Shown here piece by piece: positions 33,536-51,039 of a stretch of 64,000 nt of DNA. The DNA is taken from positions 744,001 to 808,000 of the forward strand of contig NZ_JAFCKT010000001.1 in assembly GCF_018129985.1 (NCBI RefSeq), read 5' to 3'. A program made the position numbers and the translations under genes. The notes beneath the pieces are model-generated. The model saw only the letters and a list, made by a program, of their open reading frames with translations, did no database searches and was not told the origin of the DNA. The stretch comes from Bradyrhizobium sp. SZCCT0148 (GTDB lineage Bacteria > Pseudomonadota > Alphaproteobacteria > Rhizobiales > Xanthobacteraceae). Numbering within the stretch: position 1 is the stretch's first letter; each line of letters opens with the position of its first letter.

Positions 33536-34058
33536 GCGCGAGCTCCACGTGATGCGTGCTGCGCAGAGCTTGGACCGAAGTCTCACGGGGAGTCTGCTTG
33601 TCCCCTCGGGAACATTGTACGGGAGATCGTCAGGGCGTTTCAAGACGAGCGAGAGCGGCTTTCTCCCAGATGCGCCCGCCGGATTGGCTCGGAATTGGTG
33701 AAATCTTCGTGACGTTCCCGCATGGAGTTCCTGATGCGGACTTGTTGACAGCTTGGGGGTCCGGGAGTTCAATTCAGGACATCGGGGACTTGCGATCTCC
33801 CCGTGAGGCGACATGCCCAAGAATCGCGTCCTTTACCCAAGGACGCAGCATGCCTTCATTTCTCATCCACATTTCGTCCGATGCTTTCCCAAGTGGTAGG
33901 CGCGTCGACCGCGCCGAGCTGATTGATCTTGCGCATCGACACGGACCTCTACGCCGAATGCTCGTCGTGGCTTGCCGGAGCGGCAAGAGGCTCAGCCGAG
34001 GCATCGCGGCCCTTCTCCGCTGCACCCGGGATAGAACTTACATGCCAGGAGGACCCAA
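33536..34058. other. Intergenic stretch without a supported gene
   Basis: About 520 bases. One plus-strand frame (ATG at 33850 to 34074, 74 codons) has a weak AAGGAC site and overlaps the start of the PepSY gene. Its composition is not convincing. I see no clear promoter match. Confidence 0.4.
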
Positions 34059-44591: not shown

Positions 44592-44792
44592 TGCAAGCTC
44601 CATATTCGCTTCGACCAAAAACGCAGGGCAAGCTCCAGGGTTGCAAAGCCGTGGTGGCCGTTCCGAGAGTTCCGTCGCCACGCTTGAGTTCTGCCAAGGG
44701 GCCAAACGGAACTTCGGCAACACCGATGGATTGCCGTGGGTCGTCCGACGTCGAAGACGCCGGCGAACCCTCTCGACATGCAGGAGCTGTCA

Positions 44793-45191
44793 ATGATCCT
44801 CCCAACGGATACCATCGTGGCCGTCGCCGACGGAGAAAAGCTGAACCTCTTCCGCAACACCGGCACCGAGACGCAGCTCACCCTGATTGCCGCTCCACGA
44901 GAGGATGTCGAGGCTGCCAGTGGCAGCGGCGGGCACAACAACAGTTCAGCGAACCCCGATCAGAGCCAGGCGGAGGAGGATGGTTTCGCCTCGGGCATCG
45001 TCGGCATGCTGAACTCCCAGGTGCTCACCAACAAATTCAGCGACATCGTCATCATCGCCGCGCCCAAGACGCTCGGTGAGATGCGCAAGCACTACCACAA
45101 GAAGCTGCAGGAGGCTCTTGTCGGCGAAATTGCCAAGGACCTGACAGGTCATTCGATCGCAGACATCGAAAAGACGATTGTCGCGGCTTAG
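44793..45191 (+). CDS. Host-attachment-family protein
   Basis: 132 residues from ATG 44793 with AGGAG upstream. ILPTDTIVAVADGEKLNLFR, FASGIVGMLNSQVLTNKFSD, IVIIAAPKTLGEMRKHYHKK and EIAKDLTGHSIADIEKTI match the family annotated as protein required for attachment to host cells (described in Agrobacterium), related to the eRF1-like baeRF fold. Direct evidence for attachment is thin, and many members are simply stress-related. It lies 17 bases upstream of the P450 gene, and the two are probably co-transcribed. Confidence 0.88.
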   Translation: MILPTDTIVAVADGEKLNLFRNTGTETQLTLIAAPREDVEAASGSGGHNNSSANPDQSQAEEDGFASGIVGMLNSQVLTNKFSDIVIIAAPKTLGEMRKHYHKKLQEALVGEIAKDLTGHSIADIEKTIVAA

Positions 45192-45208: not shown

Positions 45209-46426
45209 ATGGCGGTTGATGAGGTGGGAGCCGCGCCCAAATTGCCTGATCAGGACGACGAGAGGAAATCGGAGGCGGCTGCCGGGATCGGCCTCCCCGA
45301 TCGTCTCGCGGAGGAGCCGGTCCGCATCGTCAATTTCGACCTCGCCCGGCAATTGTTGCGCAGCGGCGGCGTGCGGCAGGCTGGCTTCAGGGCGGAGCTG
45401 CTGGAAAAGTTTGCGGGGCGCACGCACGCTCCGGTCTTGTTCCAGGACGGTGAGGCGCATCAGAAACAGCGCAGCGCCACCGCCCGGTTCTTTGCGCCCA
45501 AAGTCGTCGCGACCCGGTATCGCCAATTGATGGAGAGCCTGAGCGATCGGCTGGTGGAGCGCTTTCGATCGGCCGGTCACGCCGAACTGGATGTCATGAG
45601 CCTGGAATTGGCTGTGGCCGTGGCCGCCGAGATCGTCGGGCTCACGCGAAGCGATCAGCGGGGCATGTCGCGCCGGTTAAACCGCTTTTTCGCCGCAAGC
45701 GGATCGCAGCCGGGCTGGCTCTCGGCATTCACGGGATTTGCGCTTGGCCAATATCGTATGCTCGCCTTCTACCTGCACGACGTGCGGCCGGCGATCCGCG
45801 TCCGCCGCGCTGCGCCGAGAGAGGACGTGATCTCCCACCTGATCGAGCAGGGGTACTCGAATCGCGAAATCCTGACCGAGTGCATGACCTATGCCGCAGC
45901 CGGCATGGCGACGACCCGCGAGTTCATCGTCATGGCGGCTTGGCACCTGCTCGAGCGCGAGGATCTGCGAGCCAGGTTTCTCGACGGCAATGAGCAGATC
46001 CAGGTGGCGATCCTGGAGGAGATTCTCAGGCTGGAGCCGGTGGTCGGCGCGCTCTATCGCCGCACGGAGCGCGAATTGAAGTTGGATGACGATGGCGCAA
46101 TCACGACCCTCGCGGCCGGCACTCTGGTGAAGATCGACGTTCGCGCCATGAACTCCGATCCCGTCGCATCCGGGGGCTGTCCGTTCAAGCTCGATGCCAA
46201 TCGCGAGGTAAGGGCAAGCAAGGCCTCCGCCAGCCTCATGAGCTTCGGAGACGGCCCTCACAAATGTCCCGGCGCGTCGGTGGCGCTGCAGGAGACCGCG
46301 ATCTTTCTGGATCGCTTGCTTCGTGTTCCGAATATTCGCTTGACGCGCCCGCCGACGATTGGCTGGAACGCCCTGATCTCAAGTTATGAGCTGCGAGATG
46401 CGCAAATTGCAAGCCAGGCCGGTTGA
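45209..46426 (+). CDS. Cytochrome P450 with canonical oxygen-activating residues
   Basis: 405 residues. The haem loop is FGDGPHKCPG with Cys 353, the ExxR motif is in ILEEILRLEP, and the I-helix AAAGMATTREF carries the Thr pair. Overall similarity to bacterial class I P450s is good although the N-terminal part diverges. It is 17 bases downstream of the host-attachment gene. It may belong to the biosynthetic-looking cluster at 46763-50412, but the minus-strand genes at 46530 and 46763 separate it from the operon. No ferredoxin gene is nearby. Confidence 0.92.
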   Translation: MAVDEVGAAPKLPDQDDERKSEAAAGIGLPDRLAEEPVRIVNFDLARQLLRSGGVRQAGFRAELLEKFAGRTHAPVLFQDGEAHQKQRSATARFFAPKVVATRYRQLMESLSDRLVERFRSAGHAELDVMSLELAVAVAAEIVGLTRSDQRGMSRRLNRFFAASGSQPGWLSAFTGFALGQYRMLAFYLHDVRPAIRVRRAAPREDVISHLIEQGYSNREILTECMTYAAAGMATTREFIVMAAWHLLEREDLRARFLDGNEQIQVAILEEILRLEPVVGALYRRTERELKLDDDGAITTLAAGTLVKIDVRAMNSDPVASGGCPFKLDANREVRASKASASLMSFGDGPHKCPGASVALQETAIFLDRLLRVPNIRLTRPPTIGWNALISSYELRDAQIASQAG

Positions 46427-46529
46427 TTGACAGGCCGGCTGTAGCGGGACTTCGTCAGCACTTGGGCCGCATGTCTCCGGTGTTTGCCAACGCCGCGTCC
46501 ACGGCTGCGACCGCGTCTTCCGGCTACGC

Positions 46530-46652
46530 TCATCCGCTTGAACGGACCACCCGGACGACCTCAATCAGCTCAGGCCGGTGGATGAGGATCCCGACGACGG
46601 CGAAGAGCAGAAGCACAGCCGAAGCCATGATCGCGATCCAATATCGATCCAT
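46530..46652 (-). CDS. Small single-pass membrane protein (40 aa)
   Basis: ATG 46652 opens MDRYWIAIMASAVLLLFAVV then GILIHRPELIEVVRVVRSSG: one hydrophobic helix and a short charged tail. GGAGG lies 12 bases upstream, rather far. A GGAAC with a weak -10 lies just before it. The surrounding gap (46427-46762) holds nothing else. Confidence 0.5.
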   Translation of the reverse strand: MDRYWIAIMASAVLLLFAVVGILIHRPELIEVVRVVRSSG

Positions 46653-46762
46653 GAGAACAATCCGACCTCCACAGCTGCGTTCCTAACCCAGTCTGGCGAG
46701 ACGGTCGGCCCCCGGTCCCACCACCTGAGCATTCCGAGGTCGTCGGCACAGTCCTGGCAGCG

Positions 46763-47206
46763 TCAGATCGCGACCGGATCAAACCAGAGCGTCATCTGAT
46801 AATCGATGGTGAGTTCCTCGCCGGCCATGATCGCCCGCTTTGCAATGACATCGATGAGCAGTCCGTCGATATGGCGCACAAAGTTGCAATTCGGGGCATA
46901 GGAATGGCTGAGGAGGCTGGTATATCCCAGCGCGATCGCTGATCGACCCCGGTGATGATACAGATCCTGCTCTGTGGTGTTGTGCTCCCACATGAAGACA
47001 TAGGTGAATATCACCGTTTGATCGACCGCGGCGCGATCACCGGCCGGGATGATAAGAACCGGCGATCTCTCGACCAGTTGTCCGGCTTGCATGTCTTCGA
47101 GGGCGACGACGCCGCGCCCCCGTTTTCCGAAGTCAGCGATAGCCAGCGCGCCGCGCGTCGCGACGGGCATTGATCTCGATATTTCAGCCAGTTGTTGCTC
47201 GCTCAT
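46763..47206 (-). CDS. Small SET-domain protein (putative lysine methyltransferase)
   Basis: 147 residues covering only a SET domain: N-terminal GKRGRGVVALEDMQAGQLVE (27-46), the middle YTSLLSHSYAPNCNFVRH with the NHS-like / PNC motif (95-112), and GEELTIDY (129-136), the classical SAM- and Tyr-containing C-terminal signature. No pre- or post-SET region is present. Bacterial SET proteins methylate lysines of proteins; the target is unknown. ATG 47206 or ATG 47170 may be the start. It is divergent from the methyltransferase operon and shares its promoter region. Confidence 0.85.
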   Translation of the reverse strand: MSEQQLAEISRSMPVATRGALAIADFGKRGRGVVALEDMQAGQLVERSPVLIIPAGDRAAVDQTVIFTYVFMWEHNTTEQDLYHHRGRSAIALGYTSLLSHSYAPNCNFVRHIDGLLIDVIAKRAIMAGEELTIDYQMTLWFDPVAI

Positions 47207-47215
47207 ACCATTGCG

Positions 47216-47270
47216 AACAGTGGCCCGTTTGCTTTGTTCCTAATAGGAACGCCATCTGGCCGCGATGGTT
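47216..47270. promoter_or_regulatory. Divergent promoter region with a perfect inverted repeat
   Basis: GTTCC-TAATA-GGAAC (47236-47250) is a perfect 5-5-5 inverted repeat between the SET gene and the methyltransferase operon. Read as promoters, GGAAC on the plus strand is followed after 16 bases by GGTT (47267-47270), and GGAAC on the minus strand after 16 bases by TGTT (47219-47216). Both are one base off the EcfG consensus. It may be overlapping divergent stress promoters, an operator, or both. Confidence 0.6.
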
Positions 47271-47277
47271 GAGCCGT

Positions 47278-48240
47278 ATGCAACTTACCTCCCATACGAT
47301 GATGGACGCCGGACTTGACTCGCTCGTCCTGTTTCTGCGCGAAGCAAGCTATGAATTTGTCACGCCCACCCCGGCGACACATGCTCGGGTCAACAGCCGG
47401 CCGGGGCGGCGGGAGGCGACGCTTCTAACGGACGTGTTCGGTTGGAGCAGACCCTTCGGAAGAGGCCTCCTTCCATTAGCCCTGTTCGAGACTTTGCGGA
47501 ACAGTGGAATCGTTCGCGAGACGGAAGGCGGCTGGAGGAGCACAGTGCGTGCGTCGACGTTGCAGGGCGAGATACTGCTGCATTCGGCGTTCCCGACGTT
47601 GTCTCCCGACGCCGTGTTCTTCGGGCCGGATACCTATCGGTTTGCGAGGGCCATCAAGAACCATCTTCGTCCGGGGACCCGCCAGCTGCGCAGGGTTGTG
47701 GATATCGGTTGCGGTGCGGGAGCTGGAGCGATCGTCGTTGCCAAGAATGCGGCCTGCGACGAAATCCTCATGGTCGACATCAATGAAGCGGCGTTGCAGC
47801 TGGCGCGGCTGAATGCGAAGGCCGCCGGCGTCGATGCAACCTCGCGGTGGAGCGATCTGCTCACGAATGTCGATGGCCAGTTCGATCTGATCGTGGCCAA
47901 TCCGCCTTATCTCAATGATCCACTGCTCCGTGCGTACCGACATGGCGGAGGCGAGCTTGGCAGCGGTCTCTCACTTCAAATAGCCGAGATCGCCAAAGCC
48001 CGGCTGTCCCGGGGCGGATCGCTGTTGCTGTACACGGGTTCGCCGATTGTGGACGGCAAGGACCGTCTTCTTCAGGCCGTGGAGCGGAGCTTTGGAAACT
48101 CCGACCTGGTCTGGTCTTACGAAGAAGTGGACCCGGATGTGTTCGGGGAAGAACTCGAAACTGAAGCGTACAGCTCGGTCGATCGAATTGCGGCTGTTGT
48201 ACTGACGGCGCAAAAGCCGGAGAGACCACATGTTAGATAG
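47278..48240 (+). CDS. Class I SAM methyltransferase with NPPY motif (HemK/RlmG-like)
   Basis: 320 residues from ATG 47278 (ATG 47299 is possible and would suit the promoter better). The N-terminal 100 residues look like a small helical/winged substrate-recognition domain. The catalytic part has VVDIGCGAGAGAIVVAKNA (motif I, 140-158), DEILMVDINEAALQLARLNA and DLIVANPPYLND (NPPY at 208-211). NPPY enzymes methylate planar nitrogens such as glutamine amides or nucleobases. First gene of a three-gene operon; it overlaps the next gene by 11 bases. Confidence 0.85.
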   Translation: MQLTSHTMMDAGLDSLVLFLREASYEFVTPTPATHARVNSRPGRREATLLTDVFGWSRPFGRGLLPLALFETLRNSGIVRETEGGWRSTVRASTLQGEILLHSAFPTLSPDAVFFGPDTYRFARAIKNHLRPGTRQLRRVVDIGCGAGAGAIVVAKNAACDEILMVDINEAALQLARLNAKAAGVDATSRWSDLLTNVDGQFDLIVANPPYLNDPLLRAYRHGGGELGSGLSLQIAEIAKARLSRGGSLLLYTGSPIVDGKDRLLQAVERSFGNSDLVWSYEEVDPDVFGEELETEAYSSVDRIAAVVLTAQKPERPHVR

Positions 48241-49108
48241 ACTTTCGACGCCAGTCGATCAGGACAGAAACTCGCAATTTCAGCTCAATCGCCTGAATGC
48301 CCTGCGCTTCAACCCGGCCTTGCCTTCATCGACCTGGGAGGATGATGTGTCCGAGGCTGCTGCGCTCTCGATTGTGGAGGGCGGCATCATCGAGCGGGCC
48401 CGAAAAGCGGTTGCAGCCCGAGCGGCGTCCGCTCCCGCCGATGCGGACGAATTCATCGCCTGGTTCGAGGAACTGAAAGAGAACGGCCCGGGACAGAACG
48501 ACCCGTTGTTTCCCTGGCTCGCCGAGCAATGCTCCATGGAGCAGATGAAATGGTTTTTGACTCAGGAAGTTGCCGGCGAGGCCGGCTTTGAGGATTTGAC
48601 CGCGCTGACGCAGTTGAAGTTGCCGGTCCAGTCCAAGCTCGAACTGGCCCGAAACTATTGGGACGAAATGGGGCGCGGGAACCCCAAGGGCATGCATGGT
48701 CCACTGTTGCACGCCCTGTCCGAACATCTCGGGCTCGATCCCCAGCCGGAAACGACCGTCACTGAGGCGCTGACATTGGCCAACACGATGGCTGCGCTCG
48801 CAGCCAACCGTCGGTATGCGTATCATTCGGTCGGCGCACTCGGCGTGATCGAAATGACGGCGCCTGCGCGCTCGGCTGCGACGTCCGCCGGCCTGAAACG
48901 CCTCGGCGTGAGAGCTGGAGATCGGCACTATTTCGCGCTTCATGCCGTGCTTGATGTCAAGCATTCCTCGGCCTGGAATGCGGAGGCCATCAAACCTTTG
49001 GTCCGGCAAAATCCTGCGGTCGCGAATGCCATTGCCGAAGGTGCGTTGATGCGGCTGGAGTGCGGAGCGCGTTGCTTCGAGCGTTACCGATCCGAATTCC
49101 GGATCTGA
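48230..49108 (+). CDS. Haem-oxygenase-like diiron oxidase (HDO superfamily)
   Basis: 292 residues, all helical. Likely metal ligands follow the HDO pattern: Glu 113/117 in TQEVAGEAGFEDL, Glu 146 and His 156 in YWDEMGRGNPKGMHG, Glu 208 in GVIEM, and the diagnostic HxxxDxxH (His 238, Asp 242, His 245) in HYFALHAVLDVKHSSAW. The superfamily (SznF, BesC, UndA are known members) performs N-oxygenation, C-C cleavage and desaturation of amino or fatty acids. The substrate is unknown. The start overlaps the methyltransferase end, and the next gene follows 5 bases later, implying stable co-expression. Confidence 0.85.
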   Translation: MLDRLSTPVDQDRNSQFQLNRLNALRFNPALPSSTWEDDVSEAAALSIVEGGIIERARKAVAARAASAPADADEFIAWFEELKENGPGQNDPLFPWLAEQCSMEQMKWFLTQEVAGEAGFEDLTALTQLKLPVQSKLELARNYWDEMGRGNPKGMHGPLLHALSEHLGLDPQPETTVTEALTLANTMAALAANRRYAYHSVGALGVIEMTAPARSAATSAGLKRLGVRAGDRHYFALHAVLDVKHSSAWNAEAIKPLVRQNPAVANAIAEGALMRLECGARCFERYRSEFRI

Positions 49109-49113
49109 GCGCA

Positions 49114-50412
49114 ATGCGCTTTCTCGGTATCGGTGACAGCTGCGATCTCGGCGCTTTGTATATGAGGCTCGTCGCTGATGGTCACGAGGTCAGGACCTAC
49201 GTCGGTGAGCCGCTGGCGCACGGCACAATGGCGGGTCTGGTCGAGCGCGTGACTGACTGGGAGGCCGAACTCGACTGGATTGGAGCGGCCGGAGAGGATG
49301 GCATCATCCTGTTCGAGAACGTGGCCAAATCGCGCGGGCAACTTCAAGATCGGCTGCGCCAGGATGGATTCAACGTTATCGGCGGCAGTGCATACGGTGA
49401 TCGGCTGGAGAACGATCGGGCATTTGGCCAACGGATTCTCGCCGGCATCGGGCTCCAGACTGCCCGGGTTGAAGAGTTCACCAGCTTGGTCGACGCCGAG
49501 CACTTCCTTGCGCAATATCCCGGCCGCTACGTCCTGAAGTTCAACGGAGCGAATTTTGGCCCAAGAGACAATTATGTCGGGAGGCTGTCCAGCGGGCTGG
49601 ACGCGCTGGCTGTGCTGCAGAGCAAGGCACCTCAGCTCGGAGATGGTGGCAGTTTCATATTGATGGAGCATGTCGAGGGCGTGGAGATGGGAGTTGGCGC
49701 CTATTTCGATGGCCAGTCGTTCGTGGGAAGGCCTTGCCTGGACTGGGAGCACAAGAGATTCTTCCCCGGAAATCTCGGCGAACTCACCGGCGAAATGGGA
49801 ACGATTGCGACGTTCGATCGCTCGGAGGTGTTTTTTGAGCGGACCCTGAAGCCTATGGCTCCGCTGCTGTCTGCGGGCGGCTACTGCGGTTACGTCAATC
49901 TCAACACCATCGTGAACAGGTCCGGCATCTGGCCCCTCGAGTTCACGTGCCGGTTTGGCTATCCGGGTTTTGCAGTCCTTGGGCCATTGCAGGAAACTCA
50001 CTGGGCTGATCTGTTCGCAGCCATGACCGGACGACCGGGCCGAGTGCAGATGCGCCCTGGATTTTGTGCTGCTGTTGTCCTGACCACGCCTCCTTTCCCC
50101 TATGATCGCAAGGCAGTGGATGAACCCGTTGGGCTACCCGTGATCTTCGATGGGGGACTAACGCCGGATGAGTTGGAGGGCCTCTACTATGGCGAGGTCG
50201 GCGTGTCGAATGGCCGCCTCGTCACATCGGGCCAGTACGGCTGGACCATGGTGGCAACCGGAACGGGGACGACGATCGGAGCAGCGCGCGAGGGTGCCGT
50301 TGCACTGGCCGACAAGGTGGTGGTGCCAAACCTCCGGTATCGACGTGATATCGGTTGCAGCCTGATCGATCGGGATTTCGCGCAGGTGGATGACCTGGGC
50401 CTGCTGGGATAA
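49114..50412 (+). CDS. PurD-like ATP-grasp ligase
   Basis: 432 residues with the phosphoribosylamine-glycine-ligase layout: RFLGIGDSCDLGALYMRLVA (N-domain), FGQRILAGIGLQTARVEEFT, PGRYVLKFNGANFGPRDNYV (nucleotide Lys), GGSFILMEHVEGVEMGVGAY (hinge Glu), the DHKR-like CLDWEHKRFFPGNLG and LEFTCRFGYPG near the metal site. It diverges clearly from true PurD, and a purine gene would not be expected here. It probably joins a carboxylate and an amine in the pathway of the two preceding genes. The start ATG 49114 is 5 bases after the oxidase stop. Confidence 0.85.
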   Translation: MRFLGIGDSCDLGALYMRLVADGHEVRTYVGEPLAHGTMAGLVERVTDWEAELDWIGAAGEDGIILFENVAKSRGQLQDRLRQDGFNVIGGSAYGDRLENDRAFGQRILAGIGLQTARVEEFTSLVDAEHFLAQYPGRYVLKFNGANFGPRDNYVGRLSSGLDALAVLQSKAPQLGDGGSFILMEHVEGVEMGVGAYFDGQSFVGRPCLDWEHKRFFPGNLGELTGEMGTIATFDRSEVFFERTLKPMAPLLSAGGYCGYVNLNTIVNRSGIWPLEFTCRFGYPGFAVLGPLQETHWADLFAAMTGRPGRVQMRPGFCAAVVLTTPPFPYDRKAVDEPVGLPVIFDGGLTPDELEGLYYGEVGVSNGRLVTSGQYGWTMVATGTGTTIGAAREGAVALADKVVVPNLRYRRDIGCSLIDRDFAQVDDLGLLG

Positions 50413-50534
50413 TATTGCCTTCACCGCAACGGAAGGCCTTGCGTGCCTCACGCTCAGCCTTGCTGGTCCGCCGGCGGTTGGTAGTAACCAGCCGGCTTTG
50501 TCACCCTCGATCCAAACGATCTTTGCGAGTCGGA

Positions 50535-50720
50535 TCAGTTCTTGTTCGTCGGCCGGGCATCTCGCGCCAGGCGCTCCGCCCTGAGACGCTTATGATTTTC
50601 CTGGAACTCCGGATCGGCGTGGCTGTCCGCTATCGTTTGCCGCGCCCCGATAGGATTTTGCGCCTTCCTGTCCGCCTCATCCGCGACCTGTTGCTCGGCG
50701 GAGCGCTTTCGTTTGGCCAT
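50535..50720 (-). CDS. Small charged protein (61 aa)
   Basis: Reads MAKRKRSAEQQVADEADRKA, QNPIGARQTIADSHADPEFQ, then ENHKRLRAERLARDA. Very hydrophilic and helical, with no membrane or signal segment. Short proteins of this layout are common in rhizobia. No function recognised. It is convergent with the ATP-grasp gene. Confidence 0.72.
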   Translation of the reverse strand: MAKRKRSAEQQVADEADRKAQNPIGARQTIADSHADPEFQENHKRLRAERLARDARPTNKN

Positions 50721-51039
50721 TGCTCGATCCTTGCATCCGTGATGCGTCCGCAACTGTTCAAGTGATTCCCTGGAACAATAGACGCTTGTCGCGCAGGCGG
50801 CGACCTCAAAAGCGCAAAGCGTCCTATCCCCGCACCGGCGATCTCCCACACATACGCCTCTGGTGGGAAGATCGCAGAGGGCGATGGACCGGCCCAAGCC
50901 CGGGAACAAGGGGCTGGACGCGGTCGGATCGCGCCGCGCTGTGTCCTGCTTTTCTGAGTTTCAGCGGGAAGCAATGGTTACATTGCGTCACAGCATGCTC
51001 TACGCTAGGGCGATCGTAGACGACTTCAGAGGTGAACAC

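Follow-up and report, generated by a model that had tools for sequence, protein, structure and literature searches.

What might a bacterium make, and under which circumstances, with a nitrogen methyltransferase, an oxygen-activating diiron enzyme and an ATP-dependent ligase encoded side by side, and why should a SET-domain protein diverge from the same short promoter region? This question is raised by a locus in Bradyrhizobium sp. SZCCT0148 (NCBI RefSeq assembly GCF_018129985.1, contig NZ_JAFCKT010000001.1, positions 744,001 to 808,000), a stretch of 64,000 nucleotides, hereafter the window, from a genome of 7.17 Mb. We find that the four genes form a module that is real, conserved and apparently uncharacterised, and that its core is the pair of methyltransferase (MT) and haem-oxygenase-like diiron oxidase (HDO) with exchangeable partners, a point absent from a preliminary description made from the sequence alone. 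Our favoured reading, to which we give a probability of roughly 0.45, is that of a stress-response pathway in which an arginine-derived compound is methylated and oxygenated on nitrogen and coupled to an amino acid. The features of the locus, including the PurD-like ligase (GARS), are as follows:

46763-47206, minus strand: gene for a SET-domain protein of 147 amino acids, with a match to Pfam PF00856
47216-47240, minus strand: candidate EcfG-type promoter of SET, GGAAC-N16-TGTT
47236-47250, no strand: palindrome GTTCCTAATAGGAAC, providing both divergent -35 boxes
47246-47270, plus strand: candidate EcfG-type promoter of MT-HDO-GARS, GGAAC-N16-GGTT
47278-48240, plus strand: MT, an NPPY class-I N-methyltransferase, with its ATG at 47278 and alternative start ATGs at 47299 and 47302
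48230-49108, plus strand: HDO, 292 amino acids, with a PF14518 match, an HrmI profile match and an AlphaFold2 model
49114-50412, plus strand: GARS, a PurD-like ATP-grasp ligase (PF01071), whose frame begins at GTG 49060 in the list of open reading frames

The open reading frame calls agree with the layout first described, namely a plus-strand MT-HDO-GARS operon with SET divergent from it, including the 71-base intergenic region between SET and MT, the 11-base overlap of MT and HDO and the 5-base gap between HDO and GARS, and the GARS start at ATG 49114 agrees with the family alignment. The family assignments proposed at that stage also hold. In a Pfam annotation that covered nine window proteins, all four scored above their cutoffs: SET (PF00856, 55.4 bits against 22.4), MT (MTS, PF05175, 69.9 against 23), HDO (Haem_oxygenas_2, PF14518, 146 against 28.9) and GARS (GARS_A, PF01071, 43.4 against 27).

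Co-occurrence and Co-divergence of the Four Genes

The expectation that these genes travel together across genera is borne out both by their distribution among genomes and by their shuffled order. Among 289 genomes from the window's class (Alphaproteobacteria), its own counted, MT (E up to 1e-25) is present in five, and HDO at more than 50% identity is present in the same five, with one relative of 32% identity in a sixth; when the window is left out (four and four of 288 genomes), such a coincidence has a chance probability of 3.6e-9. GARS (E up to 1e-50) accompanies them in four of these five genomes, and in the fifth it is cut by a contig end (L044/L118; loci are cited by numbers of this kind). 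Within the genus HDO is rare, occurring in two of 195 genomes, the window's included.

Neighbourhoods were scanned on the contigs of the best 80 of 427 HDO relatives, many of which are short, so that the neighbour counts are lower bounds. Within 2 kb of HDO, MT was found in 38 of the 80 loci, 36 times on the same strand; GARS was found in 14 and SET in five, with SET present in five of the 14 loci with GARS versus none of the 66 without it (p=8e-5). GARS without MT was seen once, in L017, where the contig starts at HDO. The nearest named relative among these 80 is Bradyrhizobium sp. MOS003 (L015), with an HDO 97% identical. Each of the four encodes a protein that is conserved in other loci, where the arrangement changes. 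In L018 the SET gene is found downstream of the operon; L026 has GARS-MT-HDO-SET; in L090 GARS-SET-HDO diverges from MT; and L021, L035 and L060 carry GARS on the other strand. Plasmid-borne relatives were also found. In the remaining 42 loci no MT lies within 2 kb; the genomes of 32 of them were searched, and MT was found elsewhere in 16 (4.7 kb from HDO in L092) and not found in the other 16.

The proteins have also diverged together, with HDO and MT distances correlating at r=0.76 (38 loci, 0/2000 permutations) and HDO and GARS distances at r=0.55 (12 loci, 22/5000), or r=0.49 (11 loci, 72/5000) once the frameshifted L012 is removed. On an HDO tree of 94 rows built by a quick method the partner labels cluster, requiring 11 changes for MT, seven for GARS and three for cyanophycin synthetase. 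The L012 locus, on a Sphingomonas daechungensis plasmid (6597-8846), has GARS and HDO each split over two frames and a different type of SET gene nearby; the latter was rejected as an orthologue, being only 27% identical, and the locus was therefore not counted as SET-bearing. In Methylocystis (L050, 6641-8808), genes for the ethanolamine ammonia-lyase subunits EutB and EutC lie directly upstream of MT-HDO-GARS, and by gene clusters the same holds for L055 and L085.

Whether SET belongs to the cluster had at first been left open. Its orthologues occur in L015, L016, L018, L026 and L090, every one a GARS-bearing locus, and it shares the regulatory region of the operon. Judged by where it co-occurs and by its promoter region, SET truly accompanies the operon.

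The Diiron Oxidase

The HxxxDxxH motif reported at HDO residues 238-245 is present, and E113, E117, E146, H156, E208, H238, D242 and H245 are invariant in all 57 aligned HDO sequences, window included. A profile search of the PDB with the HDO family returned HrmI (5e-44) and SznF (5e-5) as the best sequence relatives, with six of these residues (E146, H156, E208, H238, D242 and H245) aligning with residues of both. That the aligned residues are ligands we assume in part from the residue numbering of SznF. The assumption rests otherwise on a review's description of HDO ligands (PMC13108848), and the sequence appears to contain the core set of three histidines and three carboxylates.

The AlphaFold2 model of HDO (mean predicted local distance difference test, pLDDT, 94.4) has a haem-oxygenase fold, as confirmed by Foldseek and VIA-align. 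Both placed HrmI first (VIA Z 34.9, 2.1 A over 288 residues, 24-25% identity), RohS second (Z 26.7, 2.5 A over 262 residues) and SznF third (Z 23.9, 3.2 A over 276 residues), and Foldseek gave a template-modelling (TM) score of 0.89-0.90 by query length against HrmI. The preliminary description had asked whether Glu 113/117 and the other six residues meet at a diiron site; the model resembles diiron N-oxygenases and six ligands are conserved as expected, whereas E113 and E117, though invariant, lie outside the aligned six. PF14518 is the sole Pfam match up to E 0.1, with no C-terminal cupin. HDO is predicted to bind two metals and to activate O2. N-oxygenation of an amino-acid side chain would be its likeliest chemistry because its nearest relatives oxidise side-chain nitrogen: according to the review's account of these enzymes, HrmI oxidises the side-chain amine of lysine, its substrate being free lysine, and the HDO domain of SznF hydroxylates N-methyl-arginine (PMC13108848).

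The Methyltransferase, Ligase and SET Protein

The MT family has NPPY in 31 of 33 sequences and NPPF in two. Although the NPPY motif is common to PrmC/HemK, MT scores only 71.2 bits against the PrmC equivalog, whose cutoff is 199.1. Its AlphaFold2 model (mean pLDDT 93.6) was matched best by Foldseek to a gentamicin N-methyltransferase, presumably GenN, and to the aeronamide N-methyltransferase AerE, with 17-22% identity.

GARS retains the ATP-grasp domain and is probably a ligase with a substrate other than that of PurD, since it falls far below the NCBIfam purD cutoff (94 bits against 288), a separate true purD lies elsewhere in the source genome (543 bits), and 11 of 11 aligned family members, window included, carry RFGYPG where the genome's own PurD has RFGDPE. 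With that separate purD in the genome, GARS was rejected as the housekeeping PurD, or glycinamide ribonucleotide (GAR) synthetase. No GARS relative was confirmed in the viral contigs searched. The SET protein retains the motifs that we take to form the SET active site and is probably a lysine methyltransferase.

Candidate EcfG-type Promoters

The palindrome between SET and MT is unchanged in L015 and L016. Together with a GTT on both sides it yields GGAAC-N16-GGTT towards MT and GGAAC-N16-TGTT towards SET, so the EcfG promoter pattern GGAAC-N16/17-NGTT is present on both strands of the window, with GGTT/TGTT rather than the CGTT consensus at -10. The SET-side arrangement recurs in L015 (GGTT) and L016 (TGTT), and in L016 the elements are kept despite differing spacers. 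Among published EcfG promoters, those of Sphingomonas melonis follow GGAAC-N17-20-GTT (PMC6599016), and those of Sphingopyxis granuli follow GGAAC-N16-CGTT, the -10 box being flexible (PMC7083833). No standard sigma-70 promoter was found in 46400-50900.

The motif was counted in 91 loci (the window and 90 others, near-duplicates included and the distant L013 and L014 left out). GGAAC-N16/17-[CGT]GTT lies upstream of the lead gene in 28 of them against 1.07 expected, and the strict CGTT form in 12 against 0.48. With 20 near-duplicates dropped, the motif is found in 22/71 loci versus 51/1002 regions upstream of the genes predicted in these loci (test genes included), 4/71 on the reverse strand and 1/71 downstream. 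When the spacer was varied from 8 to 29, 18 loci were found at 16 and 10 at 17, with zero to four at each of the other 20 lengths. Loci were sorted by the titles of their sequence records, and the motif was found in 28/75 alphaproteobacterial versus 0/15 other loci (L017 left out, p=0.002), nine of the 15 forming one myxobacterial clade. This confinement is expected, since the EcfG-type sigma factor has been called exclusive to Alphaproteobacteria (PMC3892343). By context, the motif is present in 8/14 GARS loci, 8/22 MT-only, 11/33 HDO-alone and 1/6 cyanophycin loci. It also precedes SET genes outside the window's arrangement (L018, L090) and two (L021, L060) of the seven GARS genes checked.

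These promoter sequences suggest that expression of the cluster depends on EcfG. Oxidase, ligase and methyltransferase had been likened to a classic core for tailoring an amino-acid-derived metabolite; an amino-acid substrate is plausible, but the general-stress (EcfG)-type promoters favour stress physiology over a classic tailoring cluster.

Arginine as a Recurring Theme

The partners of the MT-HDO pair change between lineages. Cyanophycin synthetase, isoaspartyl peptidase and cyanophycinase adjoin the pair in L007, L067 and the near-identical L087 and L088; the same genes adjoin HDO without MT in L056 (near the contig start), and in L092 cyanophycin synthetase is 5.8 kb away. A relative of dimethylargininase and arginine dihydrolase, scoring below curated cutoffs, lies beside HDO in 11/80 loci. 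Cyanophycin or dimethylargininase partners adjoin MT and HDO in loci without GARS, except in L057, which combines the dimethylargininase relative with both MT and GARS. On a Legionella sainthelensi plasmid (L005, 8076-10849), MT is fused to a dimethylargininase-like domain directly upstream of HDO. Komagataeibacter and Variovorax have instead a protein of 361-364 amino acids with a weak resemblance to ATP-grasp ligases such as cyanophycin synthetase and D-Ala-D-Ala ligase. Arginine is thus a recurring denominator of the partner genes, which points indirectly to an arginine-linked substrate.

Two further observations concern these loci. The fused MT and HDO of L005 lie close to LigD and Ku. In Sphingobium chlorophenolicum (L142, 6420-7015), an MT copy remote from HDO is immediately preceded by short remnants, probably decayed, of isoaspartyl peptidase and cyanophycinase.

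A Proposed Pathway and Its Alternatives

On our favoured reading, EcfG would under stress drive divergent transcription of SET and of MT-HDO-GARS out of the shared palindromic region. GARS would activate a carboxylate as an acyl phosphate and couple this to an amine, HDO would add oxygen to a nitrogen in the side chain of an amino acid or dipeptide derived from arginine, and MT would methylate that compound on a planar or amine nitrogen, with the exchangeable ligase supplying or consuming the amino-acid conjugate. What results would be a small arginine conjugate, methylated and oxidised on nitrogen, that serves stress survival, and the cluster would be a mobile metabolic module under general-stress control. 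What the data show directly are the gene set and the way it co-occurs, the fold predicted for HDO with its conserved ligands, and the promoter motif, whereas we infer the dependence on EcfG, arginine, N-oxygenation, the order of these steps, the product and the role of SET. More tentatively, and with somewhat less confidence, the module may belong to an undescribed class of general-stress metabolites, an arginine counterpart of ergothioneine, in which an MT-HDO core N-methylates and N-oxygenates an arginine-derived nitrogen and interchangeable ATP-grasp ligases (PurD-like, cyanophycin synthetase or cyanophycin-synthetase-like) serve it; such modules would spread by plasmid or other transfer among proteobacteria and myxobacteria and be EcfG-induced in Alphaproteobacteria, and the part of SET would be to tune or protect the pathway.

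Several results weigh against this pathway. As regards the promoter, 63/91 loci lack the motif as written; it was not found before SET in L026, nor before GARS in L035, L012, L057, L090 and L026; just one of the six cyanophycin loci has it; and none of 16 MT copies remote from HDO (three of them myxobacterial) has it within 200 bp. The window's own -10 element towards MT is GGTT instead of CGTT, and a spacer of 21, with four loci, is the highest among the control spacers. Across the whole source genome the strict motif is not in excess (66 forward and 72 reverse versus 92 and 88 for the reversed control). In an unbiased hexamer scan five words richer in AT ranked above GGAACC, which came sixth; the case therefore lies in the spaced motif and not in the word. 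As regards arginine, nine of the 11 loci with the dimethylargininase relative are one myxobacterial clade, no arginine enzyme is among the nine window proteins scanned, cyanophycin synthetase scored above cutoff in only 6/49 genomes searched, and the closest HDO relative, HrmI, acts on lysine. Finally, of 32 searched genomes in which HDO lacks a neighbouring MT, 16 yielded no MT, and in these HDO may function without MT.

SET enzymes usually act on lysine, and HrmI is the closest solved relative of HDO by both sequence and fold; lysine might therefore be the substrate, with HDO forming N6-hydroxylysine or 6-nitronorleucine, MT and SET methylating and GARS coupling. We consider this improbable, as identity to HrmI is just 24-25% and the gene partners seen in other lineages are those of arginine metabolism. 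HDO may otherwise be a stand-alone stress protein that limits peroxide on drying, like Acinetobacter DtpC, an HDO co-transcribed with katE, where as described either gene suffices for desiccation tolerance and double loss abolishes it (PMC13232832), so that MT, GARS and SET would be companions and not parts of one pathway. A catalase within 9 kb of HDO in 5/80 loci (L045, L087, L088, L092 and L094) and the EcfG motif, present in 11 of the 33 alphaproteobacterial loci where HDO has no MT, GARS or cyanophycin neighbour, would suit such a protein, which nevertheless seems quite unlikely given the frequency of MT within 2 kb (38/80), its correlated divergence, and the recurrence of GARS and SET in shuffled order.

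It is unlikely too that this is a conventional specialised-metabolite cluster of the mangotoxin kind, making a secreted amino-acid antimetabolite, with the EcfG-type promoter as a timing device only. HDO with an ATP-grasp ligase is a recognised kind of cluster, of which 25 or more distinct examples exist, and the synthesis of mangotoxin, as outlined in the same source, uses arginine with a deiminase (PMC13185094); the patchy spread (two of 195 genus genomes) and plasmid-borne relatives would also fit. However, the promoters are of the general-stress type, and no steady transporter partner was recognised among annotated representative neighbour clusters, the transporter-like neighbours being an ABC ATPase cluster in seven loci (median distance 6.4 kb) and a dicarboxylate symporter in L007, L087 and L088. 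A chance neighbourhood of four genes without a common function, for which the absence of SET from 9/14 GARS-bearing loci might speak, is already contradicted by how the genes co-occur across genomes, by their shuffled orders and by the promoter region that is shared, and retains a close to negligible probability.

About a dozen haem-oxygenase-like diiron oxidases were functionally validated by the count of a 2026 review, mostly in natural-product or cofactor synthesis (PMC13108848). If an HDO family is indeed wired to the alphaproteobacterial general stress response, this would give such enzymes a second role, in stress chemistry. The exchangeable arginine-related partners provide a short list of candidate substrates, and arginine, if confirmed, would explain the cyanophycin genes and dimethylargininase relatives beside the MT-HDO pair and would mean a new stress metabolite for soil and plant-associated bacteria.

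Flanking Genes

A cytochrome P450 gene (45209-46426, plus strand), whose reading frame is open in the window, was rejected as a fifth member: L015 matches it only in out-of-register pieces, and there is no match within the 10-kb flanks of L016, which carries all four genes. At 44736-45191 (plus strand) lies a gene of baeRF family 12, or 'attachment to host cells', and a gene so named is included in the S. melonis EcfG table (PMC6599016), so more stress genes may lie near the cluster. Two regulatory RNA motifs, chrB-a (33779-33852, plus strand) and chrB-b (33563-33606, minus strand), occur on opposite strands.

Comparison With Known Systems

No characterised pathway with the same gene set was found in the literature searched, supplements apart, in line with the preliminary description, which knew of none, although the at least 25 clusters of one survey may include it (PMC13185094). 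Parallels exist for single enzymes and pairs of enzymes, and we therefore group the module with HDO-plus-ATP-grasp clusters and do not regard it as categorically new. The lysine N-oxygenases HrmI/BelK are the nearest HDO relatives in sequence and fold, with all six ligands aligning, but identity is limited to 24-25% and HrmI uses free lysine. SznF of the streptozotocin route is more distant by profile (5e-5) and is alike in having an HDO domain that, as the review describes it, acts on N-methyl-arginine (PMC13108848). It differs in its C-terminal cupin, typical of SznF-type N-nitrosating enzymes and absent from the window HDO. SznF also has an extra, fourth carboxylate, for which E113 or E117 would be the candidate counterpart.

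Mangotoxin synthesis (mboA-F) likewise combines an HDO with ATP-grasp ligases to build an arginine-derived peptide, but its description includes two ligases, a deiminase, the redox partner MboB and an alkyne peptide product, and mentions no methyltransferase or SET protein (PMC13185094); the window has one ligase, and no deiminase among the nine proteins scanned. Acinetobacter DtpC-KatE would resemble the module in placing an HDO in stress survival, and its paper leaves methyltransferase and ATP-grasp unmentioned (PMC13232832). No catalase was found among the nine window proteins scanned. In L045 and L092 a catalase lies within 1 kb of HDO, with a KatE-like C-terminal domain in the cluster representative, an arrangement reminiscent of Acinetobacter dtpC-katE.

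The gentamicin N-methyltransferase and AerE offer the best folds for MT but share 17-22% identity with it and act on aminoglycoside or peptide substrates. The cyanophycin synthetase/cyanophycinase system adjoins MT-HDO in other loci, whereas among the nine window proteins scanned none of its members was seen and a PurD-like ligase is present instead. Ergothioneine synthesis offers an analogy for the whole, as it too uses an N-methyltransferase, an iron oxygenase and an ATP ligase. TIGR03440 we take to be EgtB of that pathway. The S. melonis EcfG table places a 'probable methyltransferase' beside a 'TIGR03440 family protein' (PMC6599016), and this pairing suggested the comparison of the module of Bradyrhizobium sp. 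SZCCT0148 with ergothioneine synthesis.

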